Positions 11,693 to 24,829 of a stretch of 48,264 nucleotides of DNA are shown here, one piece after another. A program made the position numbers and the translations under genes. The notes below the pieces were generated by a model. That model was not told the DNA's origin. It worked only from the letters and a program-made list of their open reading frames with translations, and did not search any database. The stretch is from Candidatus Cloacimonetes bacterium HGW-Cloacimonetes-3 (GTDB taxonomy: Bacteria > Cloacimonadota > Cloacimonadia > Cloacimonadales > Cloacimonadaceae): NCBI GenBank assembly GCA_002840645.1, contig PHBO01000017.1, forward strand, positions 1 to 48,264, in the 5' to 3' direction. Numbering within the stretch: position 1 is the first letter of the stretch; every line of letters begins with the position of its first letter.

Positions 11693-12664
11693 TTAGAGCT
11701 TGTTGATAATATCTATTAGTTCTTCTTTATTGATTTTGGTGAAGTCCACCTTCAGAAACAGGTTCCTTTCTTTGTCTTCGATGCTTTTTATCTGGTCTTC
11801 TGAGTCTCCTTTCAAACACTTCACTTCGTAGGCAATTACTTGCTGGGCAAAGCCCTTTACATCGATGTGAAGCGGATCGGAGCACTCTAACAAATCGCGT
11901 ACATAACCCCATGTTTCGTGGCTGATTAGGATTTGATCCTCTGCGGCATGAGCCGAAAGCCTGGCGGCAAGGTTAACGGGACTGCCGATAATCGTGTAGT
12001 CCATGCGTTCGGAAGAGCCGAAATTGCCGACATTTACGAAGCCGGTGTTGATGCCCATTCGTATTTTTAGAGGATAAGGGTAGCCCAGTTCGAACCATGT
12101 TTTTTGCAGTTCACCCAAGCGATCACGCATTTCCAGAGCCATGGATACACATTGCCGGGCATGCGTATAATCATCGGCAAAATCCGGATCACCAAAGAAA
12201 ACCATGATCGCATCGCCAATGTATTTATCCAGTGTTCCGTTGTGTTTGTTAACGATATTGGTCATTTCTTCCAGATATGAATTTAGAATAATAGAAAGTG
12301 ATTCACTCTCCATATTGTTGCTATGGGCAGAGAAGTCCTTTATGTCGGAGAAAAAGATAGTTAGTTTAATGCGTCTGGTTTGGTTCAGTTCTCCTCTTTC
12401 ACCGCCATGGGTTATCTTCTTGAAAAGAGGTGGGGATACGTAGCGGCTAAGCCTTTCGAGCAGTTTGAGGGTGCGCCGCTGCTGTTTATCGCTAAGCCTC
12501 GTTAGGTTAAAGAAGTTATTCAGAATTCTAATATAAGAATCAAGCAGTTCCCGATAGTCGCTAATCTTGATTGAGCCACTTGCTTCGTTATTCGCCAAGC
12601 TCTCTTTAGCTTTATCGATCAGCTCGCGTTCAGCCTTGAAAACGTCATCAATGTGCGAAGTCAT
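11693..12664 (-). CDS. Class III adenylate/guanylate cyclase in a SiaBC operon
   Basis: A 323-residue soluble protein with a class III cyclase catalytic domain from about residue 95 to 275. The two metal-binding aspartates are in FFSDIKDFSAH and YIGDAIMVFFGD. The purine-selecting lysine precedes YIGD, and the DYTIIGSPVNLAARL block carries the catalytic Asn and Arg. The K/D-T pattern favours ATP as substrate, making cAMP the likely product. The N-terminal 95 residues are helical and may be the regulatory or dimerisation part. It starts 6 bases after the SiaC-like gene with an AGGA site, so it is the last gene of the SiaB-SiaC-cyclase operon. In Pseudomonas the equivalent slot is filled by the diguanylate cyclase SiaD, which suggests that SiaC here controls this cyclase. 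Confidence 0.88.
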   Translation of the reverse strand: MTSHIDDVFKAERELIDKAKESLANNEASGSIKISDYRELLDSYIRILNNFFNLTRLSDKQQRRTLKLLERLSRYVSPPLFKKITHGGERGELNQTRRIKLTIFFSDIKDFSAHSNNMESESLSIILNSYLEEMTNIVNKHNGTLDKYIGDAIMVFFGDPDFADDYTHARQCVSMALEMRDRLGELQKTWFELGYPYPLKIRMGINTGFVNVGNFGSSERMDYTIIGSPVNLAARLSAHAAEDQILISHETWGYVRDLLECSDPLHIDVKGFAQQVIAYEVKCLKGDSEDQIKSIEDKERNLFLKVDFTKINKEELIDIINKL

Positions 12665-12670
12665 AGATTC

Positions 12671-13051
12671 CTAATATGCTGAACCCACCAATTGGTAGGG
12701 GAAATGTGCTTCTTCCAGAAACATCATGCACTGCTCACGATAATCTTCGTCATCTTCCGGGTACTTCCAAATTGCGCTTATCTGGTTTCCTTTATCAAAG
12801 TATTCACTCAGTTTGGTGAAAAAATCTATCAGCATCTTGCTGCTGCTGGTATTCAAATAGTCTATTTGTAAGTATATATCCAGTATCTGAATCTTCTCTG
12901 CAAAGTAAACATCTATTTTTGTGAACAGCGGCTGATACAATTCCAGGGCATTTTCCGGGTAGGAATCTCCTATTATCTTCAATGTTCCCATGTTTAAATC
13001 CAACTCTATGTATGGGGTGTATTTAGTTGCTGTAAGGATGTATGGTTCCAT
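12671..13051 (-). CDS. SiaC-like regulatory phosphoprotein (DUF1987)
   Basis: A 126-residue protein with the DUF1987/SiaC fold pattern: an N-terminal strand TPYIELDLN, the G-x-S-Y-P-E-N motif near residues 28-34, a long helix, and the phospho-acceptor loop YLNTSSSKMLIDFF. The threonine of that loop is residue 68, the same number I recall for the phosphorylated threonine of P. aeruginosa SiaC. In that system the unphosphorylated form binds and activates SiaD. The gene lies 3 bases after the SiaB-like gene and 6 bases before the cyclase, which makes the cyclase its probable partner (inference). Confidence 0.85.
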   Translation of the reverse strand: MEPYILTATKYTPYIELDLNMGTLKIIGDSYPENALELYQPLFTKIDVYFAEKIQILDIYLQIDYLNTSSSKMLIDFFTKLSEYFDKGNQISAIWKYPEDDEDYREQCMMFLEEAHFPYQLVGSAY

Positions 13052-13054
13052 AGC

Positions 13055-13624
13055 TTAGTCCTCTACGTTTATCCGGACTGCTATCTCAAAGAACACCTCA
13101 TCGCCAGCAAGCTCTTCAAACGTGTATTCCATGGGACGATTTGCTTTGCGGGCAATCTCGATCCACCCCAAACCGGCACTTCCGTCCGCAGTGATGGTGC
13201 CCTCCTTAAGCTGCTTCTGATAATGAAGCGTTAGTTCTGCAGGCGACAGCGAATTAAGGAAGTCTATGCGGGTTTTTATCGTGGGGATAGAGTTACGATT
13301 GATGATATTACCGGAAAACACCAAAAACTCATTCTCAGTTAGATTGCCGATTCCTATTATTCCAACCCCTGCATCTTTACGGCTGTGGGCATCAATTTCT
13401 ATCCTGTCCGTGGAGTATTTCAGGATATTCTGAGCCGTTTCCACCAATATCGAGAAGATGCGGCGGATTAATTTCTCATCACAATCGTCCGTATGCAGCT
13501 TCTCTTTGATTGATTCGCCGAATGAAGTTAAAATATCCTGAGTTAGCGGACCTTTGTAGGAAAACTGTATATTGTTGTCATGCATCACTCTAAATACGTT
13601 ATACGCACTGAAAGTATTCTTCAT
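13055..13624 (-). CDS. SiaB-like protein kinase (DUF6272, GHKL-type)
   Basis: A 189-residue protein resembling SiaB, the kinase that phosphorylates SiaC. It has an N-box-like segment LVETAQNILKYS near residues 60-71 and a glycine-rich ATP-lid segment GSAGLGWIEIARKA near 148, as in small GHKL kinases of the anti-sigma-factor type. The ATG at 13624 with a GAGAGG site upstream is preferred over the longer frame from 13666. It is the first gene of a three-gene operon, divergent from the PP2C-type sensor at 13815. Confidence 0.82.
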   Translation of the reverse strand: MKNTFSAYNVFRVMHDNNIQFSYKGPLTQDILTSFGESIKEKLHTDDCDEKLIRRIFSILVETAQNILKYSTDRIEIDAHSRKDAGVGIIGIGNLTENEFLVFSGNIINRNSIPTIKTRIDFLNSLSPAELTLHYQKQLKEGTITADGSAGLGWIEIARKANRPMEYTFEELAGDEVFFEIAVRINVED

Positions 13625-13814
13625 AATAAACCTCTCAACTGACAGTATAGTTAAGAACACATGCAAAACAAGTTTACTTAGAGTTACATGATTTCTCTCA
13701 AATCTGCTGATGCCCCACTCTGTTATTCAGGATTAAGCAAGCTACGTTTAATTTTTTGACTATCATATCCGATATGGTTCTCAGTTATGTGATTTATTAG
13801 TTCCAGGAGGAACA

Positions 13815-16805
13815 ATGCATAAAGCCTGCTATATGATGGCAATAATCTTAGTCAGCGGACTTACGATGAGTTTTTCCCAAAGTGCTGAAACAGCTAAAGT
13901 CCTGCAAGAATACAAGCAAATAGTGGAAGAAAACAAAAGCTACCGGACATATAGAGCTGAATCCGGACTTCGGGGTAACGCCGATTATCAATTCTCCGAT
14001 GCAGATGGCTACAGGTGGTACACTTCTGACCATGAAGGATTCCAGATATACCGTTTTAACGGGATTAAGTTTGTGGATATGTTCGCAGGAGAAAAGTCTG
14101 CTGCCAAGGACACCATGCTTCCCGTATTAGTTAAGTCTATAGTTACAAGTACCATCTATACAGCCGGTATTCACAACCTGTATGAATGGCAGAATTACAA
14201 CTGGAAGAGATATACATTCCCCAAGAATGACAGGATACTTCAGATTCGGGAAAACGATGGGCAAGTTTATTGCATCGGCGAAAAGGGGGTGGGCATACTG
14301 AAACAGGGATTTTGGGTTTACCGTCCCTTCAATGGTAAGATTACGGTAGCAGAGGCAAGCAATGCTTATGTGGATAAAAAAGGAATTGTATATAGTATGG
14401 TGCTACAAAATCAGGGTGGTTTGACCGGCGACACATCAATGTACATCAAGCAGTTTTCTACTCTTAAGACTACTCTCATGCCCATTGCCCAAAATCTGTT
14501 TAACGTCTCCGAGCCTCAAATCTGCTTCGATTACCGTAAGGAAGTGATGTGGATATACTTAGCAAAAACCGAACTGCTGTACAAATATAGCCTCAGGAAT
14601 ATGCTGGTGCAGAAGGTCTCCTTAGAACAGGGAGAGCGCATATATAGCATTTCCACCACAGACAAAGGCACAAATTGGTTGATAACTGTTAACTCCGGCG
14701 TCCTTGCAGCAGCGGAGCTTACTGCCGAATACCCTCAGAATAAAGTGATGAGATACAGCTCTACAAGCATGAGTTTTAATCCCGCTTACCTTGACTATCT
14801 ATACCTGGAAAACCAGCTCCTGCCCCTATCTGCGGATGACAACCTTGCTAATAGCAGTATTTATAACCGCATCCGCATTATAGAGCCGAATCCCCAAACC
14901 CGCCTCCTGGAAGTGAAAGAGCTAATGAATCCGCTCAATGCTAATATCTGCAAACAAGTTTATCACTTTGGTGATTTACTGTTAATGGACATGAATAACG
15001 AGAATTTCAGGAATGTAAGAAGCATACTTGCGTTGAGATATCCCTTCGAGCGGTTTACCCAAAGAGATATTCTAATGGATGCGGATAAATATAGCCTCAG
15101 CTATAACGAGCAGATGGATGTTATCCTCTTTCAACGTATGGGGAAGATATCGCTTGTCCCGATCATTATCATCTGCGAGAAAGTAAATAGTTCCTTATCT
15201 CCCTCCCATGCTAATTCCTTCAAGGCTGATAGCGCTGCAAAGCGTAAAGCCACGGGCAGCAGTAAAGAGCCATATATAGACGACAGCAAGCTCCACTATC
15301 TTTCTGATAACACCTGGCATACACTGGACATCCGAAAGTATGAAATGCATGGGCAGCCTGCTAATGTAATAGCTTTGGATGGCATTCTTTGGCTCTGTTT
15401 CGAAAACGCTTTACTGCGTTTTGATCCCAAACTTGATACAAGCTATACCTACACCCCACAAGAGGGTATTCCGTACGGGATGACGGCAGTTTTTGCAGAG
15501 CTTGGTAAGCTGATGATCAGCACCAAAGATGCTACCTATAAATTTACCGAATACCAAAATGACCTCAAGGTGGATATCCCCTACATAATTGTTTCGGACA
15601 GCCTGAAAGTTAGCATCGAAGACAGGGTAGTTTTACCTTATACACAACGCCGCCTGGAAATACCGATAAGCATCCTTGGTCCGCTTTATCCCGAACTATG
15701 CACTGTATCATACAGGCTTCTGGGTTTTAGTAAAGACTGGGTCGAGATGGTTTATCTGGAAAGAATTCGTTATCTAAAACTGCCCTATGGCGCATATACT
15801 TTTGAGGTAAGTGCCAGGGCTGCGAATGGATTACAGACCTCCGTTAAAAGTTTTTCATTCAGAATTAAACCCCCATGGTACTTCACTTGGTATGCTTATG
15901 TAGTATATTTTTTGGCTGGGCTGATGGTCTTTTTTCTTATCTACAGATGGCGCATGTATCGTTACCGCGAAACCAACCGCCAGCTTGAACTGCAAGTGGC
16001 GGAACGTACCCACGAACTGCAGGAATGGCAGCTAAGGATGACTCAATCCATAGATTATGCCTTGCTTATCCAGAAATCTATGCTTCCTCAGGATGATCAG
16101 CTGCTGCGCTTGTTCAAGGAGCACTTTATTCTCTGGCATCCGCGGGATACCGTTGGCGGTGATTTATATTGGCTGCATGAACTCCCTACAGGCAATGCCA
16201 TTCTCTTTGCGGTGATAGACTGCACCGGACATGGCGTTCCGGGTGCATTGGTTTCTATGACGGTGAATTCTGCCCTGAACCATATTGTGAAGGATCAGGG
16301 TATAAACACACCGGAGGCTGTTTTGAAGCAATTGCATCAGGATATTGGGCTTACCCTGCATCAGGAAAGTGAAAAATCCCAGCAAGACGGACTGGATATA
16401 GCATTGATTAAAGTGGATTTCAATTCCCAAGTGCTTAGTTTCGCAGGAGCTGCAATGGATATCCTTATTTATCAGCCGGATAGTCCGGAGCTAATTGTTC
16501 TGAAGGGAAGCAAGTACCCCATCGGCGGGCTGAAACACCGCAAAAATCTGTTTTTTGAACCACAAAAGATAAATTACCCCCCAAACTCAAAGGTATATCT
16601 ATTCACCGATGGTATTCTGGACCAAACTTATGAAAACATCTCGAGGATGAAAAGACTGGGACCGGAGCAATGGAGAAATATTATTAAAGATATGGGAGAT
16701 AAGCCCTTACCCGAACAAAAAAATGCTCTGGAAGAGTTAGTTGCACAAATGCTGAAGCTGGATGATCAGAGAGATGATATCACGATAGTGGGGCTAAAGC
16801 TATAA
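13815..16805 (+). CDS. Membrane sensor with Y_Y_Y domain and C-terminal SpoIIE/PP2C phosphatase (SiaA-like)
   Basis: A 996-residue protein. The order seen is: an N-terminal signal sequence, a long region of about 45-580 that looks like a periplasmic beta-propeller of the hybrid two-component kind, a Y_Y_Y domain around 585-690 (YRLLGFSKDWVEM and YGAYTFEVSA), one membrane segment near 690-712, a short coiled coil (ERTHELQEWQ), and a SpoIIE-type phosphatase domain from about 760. The phosphatase metal residues are in GGDLYW, DCTGHGVPGA, DGLDIAL and FTDGILDQ. It follows an AGGAGG site. Divergence from siaBC-like genes suggests it dephosphorylates the SiaC-like protein after sensing an external ligand. 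The architecture differs from Pseudomonas SiaA, which has a different sensor region. Confidence 0.85.
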   Translation: MHKACYMMAIILVSGLTMSFSQSAETAKVLQEYKQIVEENKSYRTYRAESGLRGNADYQFSDADGYRWYTSDHEGFQIYRFNGIKFVDMFAGEKSAAKDTMLPVLVKSIVTSTIYTAGIHNLYEWQNYNWKRYTFPKNDRILQIRENDGQVYCIGEKGVGILKQGFWVYRPFNGKITVAEASNAYVDKKGIVYSMVLQNQGGLTGDTSMYIKQFSTLKTTLMPIAQNLFNVSEPQICFDYRKEVMWIYLAKTELLYKYSLRNMLVQKVSLEQGERIYSISTTDKGTNWLITVNSGVLAAAELTAEYPQNKVMRYSSTSMSFNPAYLDYLYLENQLLPLSADDNLANSSIYNRIRIIEPNPQTRLLEVKELMNPLNANICKQVYHFGDLLLMDMNNENFRNVRSILALRYPFERFTQRDILMDADKYSLSYNEQMDVILFQRMGKISLVPIIIICEKVNSSLSPSHANSFKADSAAKRKATGSSKEPYIDDSKLHYLSDNTWHTLDIRKYEMHGQPANVIALDGILWLCFENALLRFDPKLDTSYTYTPQEGIPYGMTAVFAELGKLMISTKDATYKFTEYQNDLKVDIPYIIVSDSLKVSIEDRVVLPYTQRRLEIPISILGPLYPELCTVSYRLLGFSKDWVEMVYLERIRYLKLPYGAYTFEVSARAANGLQTSVKSFSFRIKPPWYFTWYAYVVYFLAGLMVFFLIYRWRMYRYRETNRQLELQVAERTHELQEWQLRMTQSIDYALLIQKSMLPQDDQLLRLFKEHFILWHPRDTVGGDLYWLHELPTGNAILFAVIDCTGHGVPGALVSMTVNSALNHIVKDQGINTPEAVLKQLHQDIGLTLHQESEKSQQDGLDIALIKVDFNSQVLSFAGAAMDILIYQPDSPELIVLKGSKYPIGGLKHRKNLFFEPQKINYPPNSKVYLFTDGILDQTYENISRMKRLGPEQWRNIIKDMGDKPLPEQKNALEELVAQMLKLDDQRDDITIVGLKL

Positions 16806-17125: not shown

Positions 17126-17977
17126 CTACTCTGCATAATAGCTGAAGTACCTATTCTCTTCAGAGCTTTTGGTGCCGTTATTCACAATTTCCAGCTTAAC
17201 CCAGTTCCCATAGGTATCATAGCTATAATTACGCGTTACCCGGGTTGTAGTATTGTACATGGGATCAAATGTAACTATGCTAACTGCATTGCCCTGCTCA
17301 TCGTAAGTCTTGGTCTGTTTGCTGGAGAGCTTTTTTTCCTGATAGATGGATTCCTCTATGCATTGATTATGGGAATTGTACTTGTAAACACGACGGCGTA
17401 TTTGCTTTTTGGAAGTATCCATAGTGCGCGAATCCAGTAGATTGCTATTTTTATCATAGCTGTTTTCCAGATAGTAAGATAGCTTGTCGTTCTTATCATA
17501 GTAATTCTCGCGGACAATGTTTCCAGCAGCATTATAGATATACTCGATGGATTGATATGGCTTACCGTAGAAGTCCCTGGTTTTCTTCCAGGATATTTGC
17601 TGTTTGTCGTTGTATGTAAAGTAGTGGGTTTTAGTGTCGGACAGGCTGTACTCCTTGCTTTCGGTAAGCAATCCGGAGGCATTGTATGTGTGATAATCCC
17701 CGCTCACAACCAGCCCATTACCATCTTTCTTTTCCATGGATATTAGCCGATTAGCGGCATCATAAATGTACTCATAGTCGCTACTGCTATAGTGTTCATT
17801 TCCCCACCATCTGGAGTATATCAGCCCCTCGGGAGAAAAATAAATAACTTCAGTATCGTTTATCATGCGTTCCACACTTCCCTTCAAATGAAACCTTTGC
17901 CAGTCCGTCTGCGGAACAGCACAAAGAGATACAGAAATTATTGTTAACAAGAGCAGGGCTAAGTTTACTTTGTTCAT
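17126..17977 (-). CDS. Secreted YD-repeat (RHS-like) protein
   Basis: A 283-residue protein with a signal peptide of about 19 residues (MNKVNLALLLLTIISVSLC). The rest consists of repeated YxYDxxG/N-xx-I/L segments, such as YIYDAANRLISM, YNASGLLTES, YIYNAAGNIVRE and YDTYGNWVKLE. These match the YD repeats of RHS and teneurin-type proteins, which form beta-strand wraps. There is no RHS core PxxxxDPxG motif or toxin tail, so it is a short stand-alone YD protein, probably periplasmic or at the surface. No partner gene is evident. Confidence 0.75.
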   Translation of the reverse strand: MNKVNLALLLLTIISVSLCAVPQTDWQRFHLKGSVERMINDTEVIYFSPEGLIYSRWWGNEHYSSSDYEYIYDAANRLISMEKKDGNGLVVSGDYHTYNASGLLTESKEYSLSDTKTHYFTYNDKQQISWKKTRDFYGKPYQSIEYIYNAAGNIVRENYYDKNDKLSYYLENSYDKNSNLLDSRTMDTSKKQIRRRVYKYNSHNQCIEESIYQEKKLSSKQTKTYDEQGNAVSIVTFDPMYNTTTRVTRNYSYDTYGNWVKLEIVNNGTKSSEENRYFSYYAE

Positions 17978-23773: not shown

Positions 23774-24829
23774 ATGCAGTTTATAAGGGACTTACGGAAT
23801 CCTGATTCCGAATTGTCGAGAACCCTAAACAACCTCTACGATGGTGTTTATGTGGTAGATACCACTCGCACGATTCTGTTTTGGAACAAAGCAGCAGAAG
23901 CCATGACGGGCTACAGTGCAGCGGAAGTAGTGGGTAAAAGCTGTAAGGATGATATTCTGAATCATATTGACGAGAATGGAATACTGATGTGCAGAAGTTC
24001 ATGCCCTATCGTGAAAGCAATTGCCTGTGCGGGTACTTCCATAGCCAAGGTGTATCCCAAATCAAAATCCGGCAAGCGCTTCCCGGTGGAAACACATGTT
24101 TCCACTGTAATGGACGATAATGGAGCTGTGGTGGCAGCGATAGAAGTTTTCCGGGATATCTCCCATCAGGAAGAATATCGCATCATACAGGAGAAGTTTA
24201 ACGGCATTATTCGTAAATACGTGTCCACTGCCACCTATAGCGATATTCAAAGCAGGATAGCGGGAAACACTCCGGCGGGACAAACCCGCATTCTTGATCT
24301 CAGCGTGTTGTATCTGGACGTAGTGAATTTCACCGGCTTTGCGGAAAAGAACAGTGCTGATGCCACGGTGAGGCTGCTGAACGACCTGTTTGGTATATGT
24401 GACGTGATAACACGAGAGTGTTTTGGGGATATAGACAAGTTCATCGGGGATGCCATAATGGCTGTTTTCGTGGATGCCAACGATGCCGTGCGCAGTGCAA
24501 TAAAGATTCTGGAGACCGGAATCCCGGAACTGAACAAGATACGCGAAGAGAATAACGAAAGCTGTATCGCCATCAGGATAGGAATAAACTCCGGCTTGGT
24601 GCTTCAGGGCGATGTGGGGACGATTGACCGTAAAGACCTCACGGTGATCGGCGATACGGTGAATACTGCGGCACGGATAGAGAAATCGTCAATACCAAAC
24701 AGATTGATGATCTCCGAAGCTACGCTTGCACGGCTGGATGAAGAGCTACATCAGCTATTCGTTTTCCATCACGAAGTGGAACTAAAGGGGAAAAGCGAAC
24801 CGATGAAGCTGTTTATCCTGCAAATGTAA
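23774..24829 (+). CDS. PAS-domain class III nucleotide cyclase
   Basis: A 351-residue soluble protein. The N-terminal PAS domain (about residues 10-130) includes LYDGVYVVDTTRTILFWNKAAE and FPVETHVSTVMDDNGAVVAA and holds several cysteines (MCRSSCP, ACAG). A short linker leads to a class III cyclase domain (about 175-345). Metal-binding residues are LDVVNFTGF and KFIGDAIMAVF, and the catalytic block is KDLTVIGDTVNTAARIE. It probably makes cAMP in response to a small ligand, redox or light cue detected by the PAS fold. The AAAGGAG site supports the start. It is the second class III cyclase in the window and is unrelated in its regulatory region to that at 11693. Confidence 0.9.
   Translation: MQFIRDLRNPDSELSRTLNNLYDGVYVVDTTRTILFWNKAAEAMTGYSAAEVVGKSCKDDILNHIDENGILMCRSSCPIVKAIACAGTSIAKVYPKSKSGKRFPVETHVSTVMDDNGAVVAAIEVFRDISHQEEYRIIQEKFNGIIRKYVSTATYSDIQSRIAGNTPAGQTRILDLSVLYLDVVNFTGFAEKNSADATVRLLNDLFGICDVITRECFGDIDKFIGDAIMAVFVDANDAVRSAIKILETGIPELNKIREENNESCIAIRIGINSGLVLQGDVGTIDRKDLTVIGDTVNTAARIEKSSIPNRLMISEATLARLDEELHQLFVFHHEVELKGKSEPMKLFILQM

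Follow-up and report, generated by a model that had tools for sequence, protein, structure and literature searches.

The stretch analysed is a window of 48,264 nucleotides from Candidatus Cloacimonetes bacterium HGW-Cloacimonetes-3 (contig PHBO01000017.1), a Cloacimonadota assembly of 2.68 Mb with HGW-Cloacimonetes-1 as a near relative, and it contains a four-gene signalling locus related to the Sia system of Pseudomonas. Three genes lie close together on the minus strand and encode a SiaB-like kinase (13055..13624), a SiaC-like switch protein of the STAS fold (12671..13051), and a class III nucleotide cyclase (11693..12664), with gaps of 3 bp between siaB and siaC and 6 bp between siaC and the cyclase gene. 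A SiaA-like sensor phosphatase is encoded divergently on the plus strand (13815..16805). Coordinates and family matches agree with the layout given by a first-pass annotation of this DNA (SiaB kinase, SiaC with Thr68, class III cyclase and divergent PP2C sensor); its label of a phosphorelay was wrong, as the system is a Ser/Thr partner switch. Scans for promoters and terminators returned signals no better than chance, or below. Judged from sequence, the Pseudomonas switch appears to be joined here to a likely cyclic adenosine monophosphate (cAMP) enzyme via a copied docking helix, so that one switch would be pluggable into quite different outputs.

The kinase comprises 189 residues when read from its ATG, and its open reading frame extends to a TTG at 13666. 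It matches the NCBIfam model SiaB_fam_kinase (NF038262) with 158.9 bits against a cut-off of 85, as well as Pfam DUF6272 and the structure 6kko_A (E 7e-14), and its predicted catalytic Glu62 (Glu61 in P. aeruginosa) lies in the motif ETAQN at 62, followed by the Asn. The SiaC-like protein (126 residues) matches Pfam SiaC (PF09345, DUF1987) with 105 bits against a cut-off of 24.5 and the structures 6kko/6k4f with E 2e-16. It aligns without gaps with P. aeruginosa SiaC, the numbering is the same, and Y65, N67, T68, and S69 are identical, with a phosphorylatable Thr in the NTSS loop; Thr68 (codon 12848..12850) is the predicted phosphorylation site.

The sensor (996 residues) is predicted to consist of a propeller, a Y_Y_Y domain, a membrane helix, a coiled coil, and a PP2C domain. 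The Y_Y_Y domain (residues 626–685, 15690..15869, PF07495, E 1.2e-7) and the PP2C/SpoIIE domain (residues 794–995, 16194..16799, PF07228, E 1.1e-21) are both recognised by Pfam, and the locus has a membrane PP2C phosphatase of the SiaA kind. The NCBIfam SiaA model NF038263 covers residues 719–995 with 187.7 bits, under its equivalog cut-off of 700. The PP2C motifs DCTGHG, TDG, and RDD lie within the domain and GGD slightly upstream, at 781. Of the propeller/Y_Y_Y input proposed in the first-pass annotation, the Y_Y_Y part stands, while the propeller has no Pfam match and owes its resemblance to a low-confidence model (predicted local distance difference test, pLDDT, 54.5), in which the fold is like that of the propeller/Y_Y_Y sensor BT4673 and the top fold match is the PP2C domain of SiaA (6k4e). 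In another Cloacimonadota genome (G050, L026:495-11800), three distinct PP2C sensor phosphatases surround one siaB-siaC-cyclase set, which suggests several inputs to one switch.

The cyclase (323 residues) starts with a helical domain of about 75 residues. Sequence comparison shows this domain to be a homologue of the stalk with which Pseudomonas SiaD binds SiaC; SiaD is the diguanylate cyclase that makes the biofilm signal cyclic diguanylate (c-di-GMP). Residues 1–95 (12380..12664) hold this stalk and the linker to the catalytic domain. In the crystal structure of the P. aeruginosa SiaC-SiaD complex, Ser82 and Gln86 of the SiaD stalk hold Thr68 of SiaC, and mutating this motif weakens function (PMC8457831). 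Alignment with SiaD of 7e6g places RLSDKQQ, residues 56–62 of the cyclase (12479..12499), opposite R80-Q86 of SiaD (RISDRYQ), with identity at S82, D83, and Q86, the contacts of SiaC Thr68 and its neighbours; the SiaD segment reads LRRLEKVARISDRYQQMMRDLN and residues 47–70 of the cyclase read ILNNFFNLTRLSDKQQRRTLKLLE. The Asp of the motif is invariant in all 29 aligned partner segments and in SiaD, the same pattern is found in all partner types of the Cloacimonadota SiaC loci, and the homology reaches the first helix (F..E...). When 10 cyclase stalks were compared by hhalign with GGDEF-type SiaD stalks (Tistrella, Caballeronia, Azospirillum, the genome G439, and P. aeruginosa SiaD), the probability was 97.4% with E 1.4e-11 over 77 columns. 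In the AlphaFold2 model of the cyclase, the motif sits inside a single long helix (34–75) that enters the cyclase core, and sequence and model agree on a helical stalk with the S/D/Q motif that in SiaD contacts Thr68. Two motifs 32 residues apart, as in P. aeruginosa SiaD, are not present, as the cyclase has the single one at 56–62, and its linker from stalk to catalytic domain is longer than in SiaD. Rhizobial plasmid cyclases that resemble this cyclase were considered and rejected, since they match over the catalytic domain and linker and not over the stalk.

A search for the gene set in other genomes, as the first-pass annotation had suggested, covered 125 Cloacimonadota genomes, in 18 of which SiaC is present. 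The same cyclase directly follows siaC in 10 of the 18 (G000, G004, G015, G035, G039, G045, G050, G053, G071, and G098), and the order siaB-siaC-cyclase is therefore not a matter of chance. A contig scan with one protein gave matches in Cloacimonadota only. The other eight Sia loci carry a histidine kinase (G086, G103), a PAS-HisKA protein (G058, G059, G068), a short zinc-ribbon-like protein (G119, G121), or a GGDEF protein (G122), the last with its stalk-GGDEF gene placed before the phosphatase gene. In a tree of SiaB and SiaC, nine cyclase loci form one clade (bootstrap 99, Shimodaira–Hasegawa-like approximate likelihood ratio test, SH-aLRT, 98). SiaC beside GGDEF genes, which the first-pass annotation had named as a finding that would speak against it, does not occur in this clade; distant Cloacimonadota loci use other outputs, and one of these is the stalk-GGDEF of G122. 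The cyclase locus of G053 falls outside the clade on an open branch, so that a second acquisition is possible, though not shown.

The stalk itself follows SiaC. A profile built solely from the N-termini of the cyclases (10 training genomes) matched 25 of 434 locus open reading frames, all of them SiaC-locus partners, with some loci duplicating one genome. Applied in six frames to the 125 genomes, it gave one match in each of 18 genomes, always at a Sia locus, namely in 17 of 18 genomes with SiaC and 1 of 107 without it (Fisher p 8e-19, or 1.4e-9 excluding the 10 training genomes; relatedness uncorrected). The missed SiaC-positive genome was G059, with a diverged motif. The lone match without SiaC (G107, L119) is a stalk-GGDEF protein beside siaA and siaB with no detectable siaC, which may reflect incomplete assembly or loss. 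In the source genome there is a single SiaC, along with six class III cyclases, two genes for GGDEF proteins, and six cyclic mononucleotide (cNMP)-binding proteins; the cyclase beside siaC is the only one of the six with the stalk, and the profile finds no other stalk protein there, GGDEF proteins included. Variation of SiaC partners at other loci (histidine kinase, PAS-HisKA, zinc-ribbon) might suggest that the target of SiaC is some other protein and the cyclase merely its neighbour. However, across loci the neighbour varies and the stalk stays, and the cyclase is the sole docking-stalk protein found by the profile in the source genome, which makes this explanation very improbable. The two GGDEF genes lie on other contigs and are devoid of the stalk; the system is a switch of the SiaABC kind that falls outside a strict definition of SiaABCD, as it has no GGDEF output. 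The window also encodes another class III cyclase (23774–24829, plus strand), which has a PAS domain, lacks the SiaC stalk, and serves as a natural control.

The catalytic domain of the cyclase (PF00211, 88.6 bits) has P. aeruginosa CyaB as its best match in the PDB (3r5g, E 4e-55, 190 bits), and CyaB is also the best fold match. The metal-binding D107 and D151, the purine-specifying K147 and T224, and the transition-state residues N231 and R235 are invariant in 10 orthologues, which corresponds to the residue pattern of class IIIb adenylyl cyclases. As the active-site residues are those of CyaB, the likely product is cAMP. Guanylyl and pyrimidine cyclases exist among the class III folds as well, and the PycC models of PADLOC match the catalytic core with 99 bits at best; a product such as cyclic guanosine monophosphate (cGMP), or the cyclic cytidine or uridine monophosphate (cCMP/cUMP) of Pycsar defence, is nevertheless improbable, because the adenylyl cyclases CyaB and CyaC share K147 and T224, whereas Cya2, a guanylyl cyclase, carries Glu in place of the Lys, and because the CyaB match is far better. 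Assignment to Pycsar was rejected, as the match is limited to the catalytic core and Pfam gave no sign of a Pycsar-type effector domain in the adjoining genes scanned. In G039, an ATP-binding cassette (ABC) transporter gene lies 47 bp past the cyclase on the same strand and is followed by two stand-alone cNMP-binding proteins (L024:2939-7794), and the source genome has an orthologous trio on another contig (C30, L067:1851-5000). A cyclic-mononucleotide-gated transporter is thus a candidate effector. Look-alike secreted RHS-repeat-like proteins of about 283 residues adjoin both the SiaC locus (17126–17977) and the ABC-cNMP set (L067:750-1598).

On this basis, we consider it probable that the locus encodes a SiaABC-type partner switch with a class IIIb adenylyl cyclase as its output. 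An inner-membrane sensor, with propeller and Y_Y_Y domain outside and PP2C inside, would dephosphorylate SiaC at Thr68, and SiaB would rephosphorylate it. Unphosphorylated SiaC would bind the N-terminal helix of the cyclase near Arg56-Gln62, probably with two SiaC per cyclase dimer; as the cyclase has one docking motif and SiaD two, a 2:2 complex is predicted. Bound SiaC may stabilise a parallel coiled coil and so bring the two catalytic domains together and turn cAMP synthesis on. Phosphorylated Thr68 would not fit between the helices, and it is therefore proposed that kinase activity switches the cyclase off. We infer the binding, the activation by unphosphorylated SiaC, and the product from these analogies. 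The sign of control could be the opposite, with bound SiaC keeping the cyclase inactive and phosphorylation freeing it, since docking by itself would allow either sign and the cyclase differs from SiaD in its one motif and longer linker. Class III cyclases, too, require a dimer for catalysis. Binding of SiaC activates SiaD in P. aeruginosa and stabilises its parallel dimer, and the motif retained here corresponds to the one that lies closer to the catalytic domain of SiaD and is the more important of its two (PMC8457831). Inhibition by SiaC is therefore unlikely, although less so than a product other than cAMP.

Several observations weigh against the activation of an adenylyl cyclase by SiaC. 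Neither phmmer with the stalk of the window nor hmmsearch with the cyclase-only stalk profile retrieved SiaD from the PDB; the stalks are too diverged for a direct match, and the link was therefore made through intermediate GGDEF partners. Among SiaC residues that contact SiaD, E110 is changed to Met, R103 to Asp, and L107 to Gln. None of the six cNMP-binding proteins of the genome is a cAMP regulator of the CRP (cAMP receptor protein) type with a DNA-binding domain, and the model of the sensor is too weak for detailed claims. At SiaC position 103, the P. aeruginosa pair R103-D91 (SiaC-SiaD) corresponds to Asp103-Lys67 (SiaC-cyclase) in the window, a swap of charge. Of the 19 examined pairs with an acidic residue at SiaC position 103, 18 had a partner residue that was not acidic; of the four with Arg103, three had an acidic one (p 0.009, descent uncorrected), a suggestive pattern that would fit co-evolution and is not proof of it. 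The earlier proposal of cAMP instead of c-di-GMP downstream of a Sia switch gains support from the stalk, its co-occurrence with SiaC, and the catalytic residues; the range of outputs is wider than the two nucleotides that it considered.

Outside Cloacimonadota, the stalk profile found partners in SiaC loci that are histidine kinases (G174/G425/G430 and G391), a GGDEF protein (G439), and a zinc-ribbon protein (G488). The stalk is thus joined to class III cyclases, GGDEF proteins, histidine kinases, PAS-HisKA proteins, and zinc-ribbon proteins, so that SiaABC would drive interchangeable outputs in the manner of receiver domains. SiaC is likely, with slightly less confidence than for the switch in the window, a general plug rather than a regulator of c-di-GMP per se, with a docking domain of about 75 residues repeatedly joined to varied outputs across phyla. 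Short proteins with a stalk and a C-terminal CxxC...CPxC zinc-ribbon-like part follow siaC in two phyla (L056:7095-7556, L057:982-1452, L095:5404-5832). PAS/HATPase kinases with a response regulator encoded after them carry the stalk as well (L075:3881-5428, L094:4587-6200, L096:6382-7980), an arrangement that would link the Ser/Thr switch to two-component signalling. In G488, from another phylum, a Cache-HAMP class III cyclase (L095:3569-5284) comes right after a siaA-siaB-siaC-stalk set and has no stalk itself. At locus L077 (G204, C29), two siaC copies flank a single siaB by a PP2C gene, two more weakly SiaC-like open reading frames lie nearby, and no stalk partner was seen.

SiaC/DUF1987 proteins are widespread and, in the literature searched, characterised solely as activators of one diguanylate cyclase, and the role of SiaC outside the SiaD system was left open (PMC8457831). 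Control of a cAMP-type cyclase by SiaC was not found in the literature, in which SiaABC appears only with SiaD and c-di-GMP; this is a weak negative, as the search covered few subscription papers. One identifiable docking domain predicts the target of SiaC in a genome and assigns a target to the SiaC loci of an uncultured phylum. It is suggested that the Ser/Thr partner switch may feed cAMP-type signalling and two-component kinases too, and the docking domain offers a direct and cheap test of pluggable signalling architecture.

Compared with SiaABCD of P. aeruginosa (PA0169-PA0172), in which SiaC activates SiaD (PMC8457831), the locus shares the PP2C sensor, the SiaB kinase, Thr68 of SiaC, and a target enzyme with a docking stalk. 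It differs in having a class III cyclase instead of the GGDEF protein SiaD, one docking motif instead of two, a periplasmic propeller/Y_Y_Y input instead of a HAMP-type SiaA, and a divergent siaA. With P. aeruginosa CyaB and class IIIb adenylyl cyclases, it has in common the catalytic domain (aligned by Foldseek at 48% identity) and the purine-specifying Lys and Thr, whereas the N-terminal SiaC stalk replaces another input domain and a membrane part is missing. HsbA-HsbD and BgrV-BgrR, as cited in PMC8457831, likewise let a STAS-type protein of a phosphorylation-controlled partner switch set a nucleotide cyclase; their targets are diguanylate cyclases, whereas SiaC belongs to the DUF1987 family. 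Hybrid two-component sensors of the BT4673 type share the periplasmic propeller and Y_Y_Y architecture, as far as a low-confidence match indicates, but carry a histidine kinase in the cytoplasm where the sensor of the window has a PP2C phosphatase.

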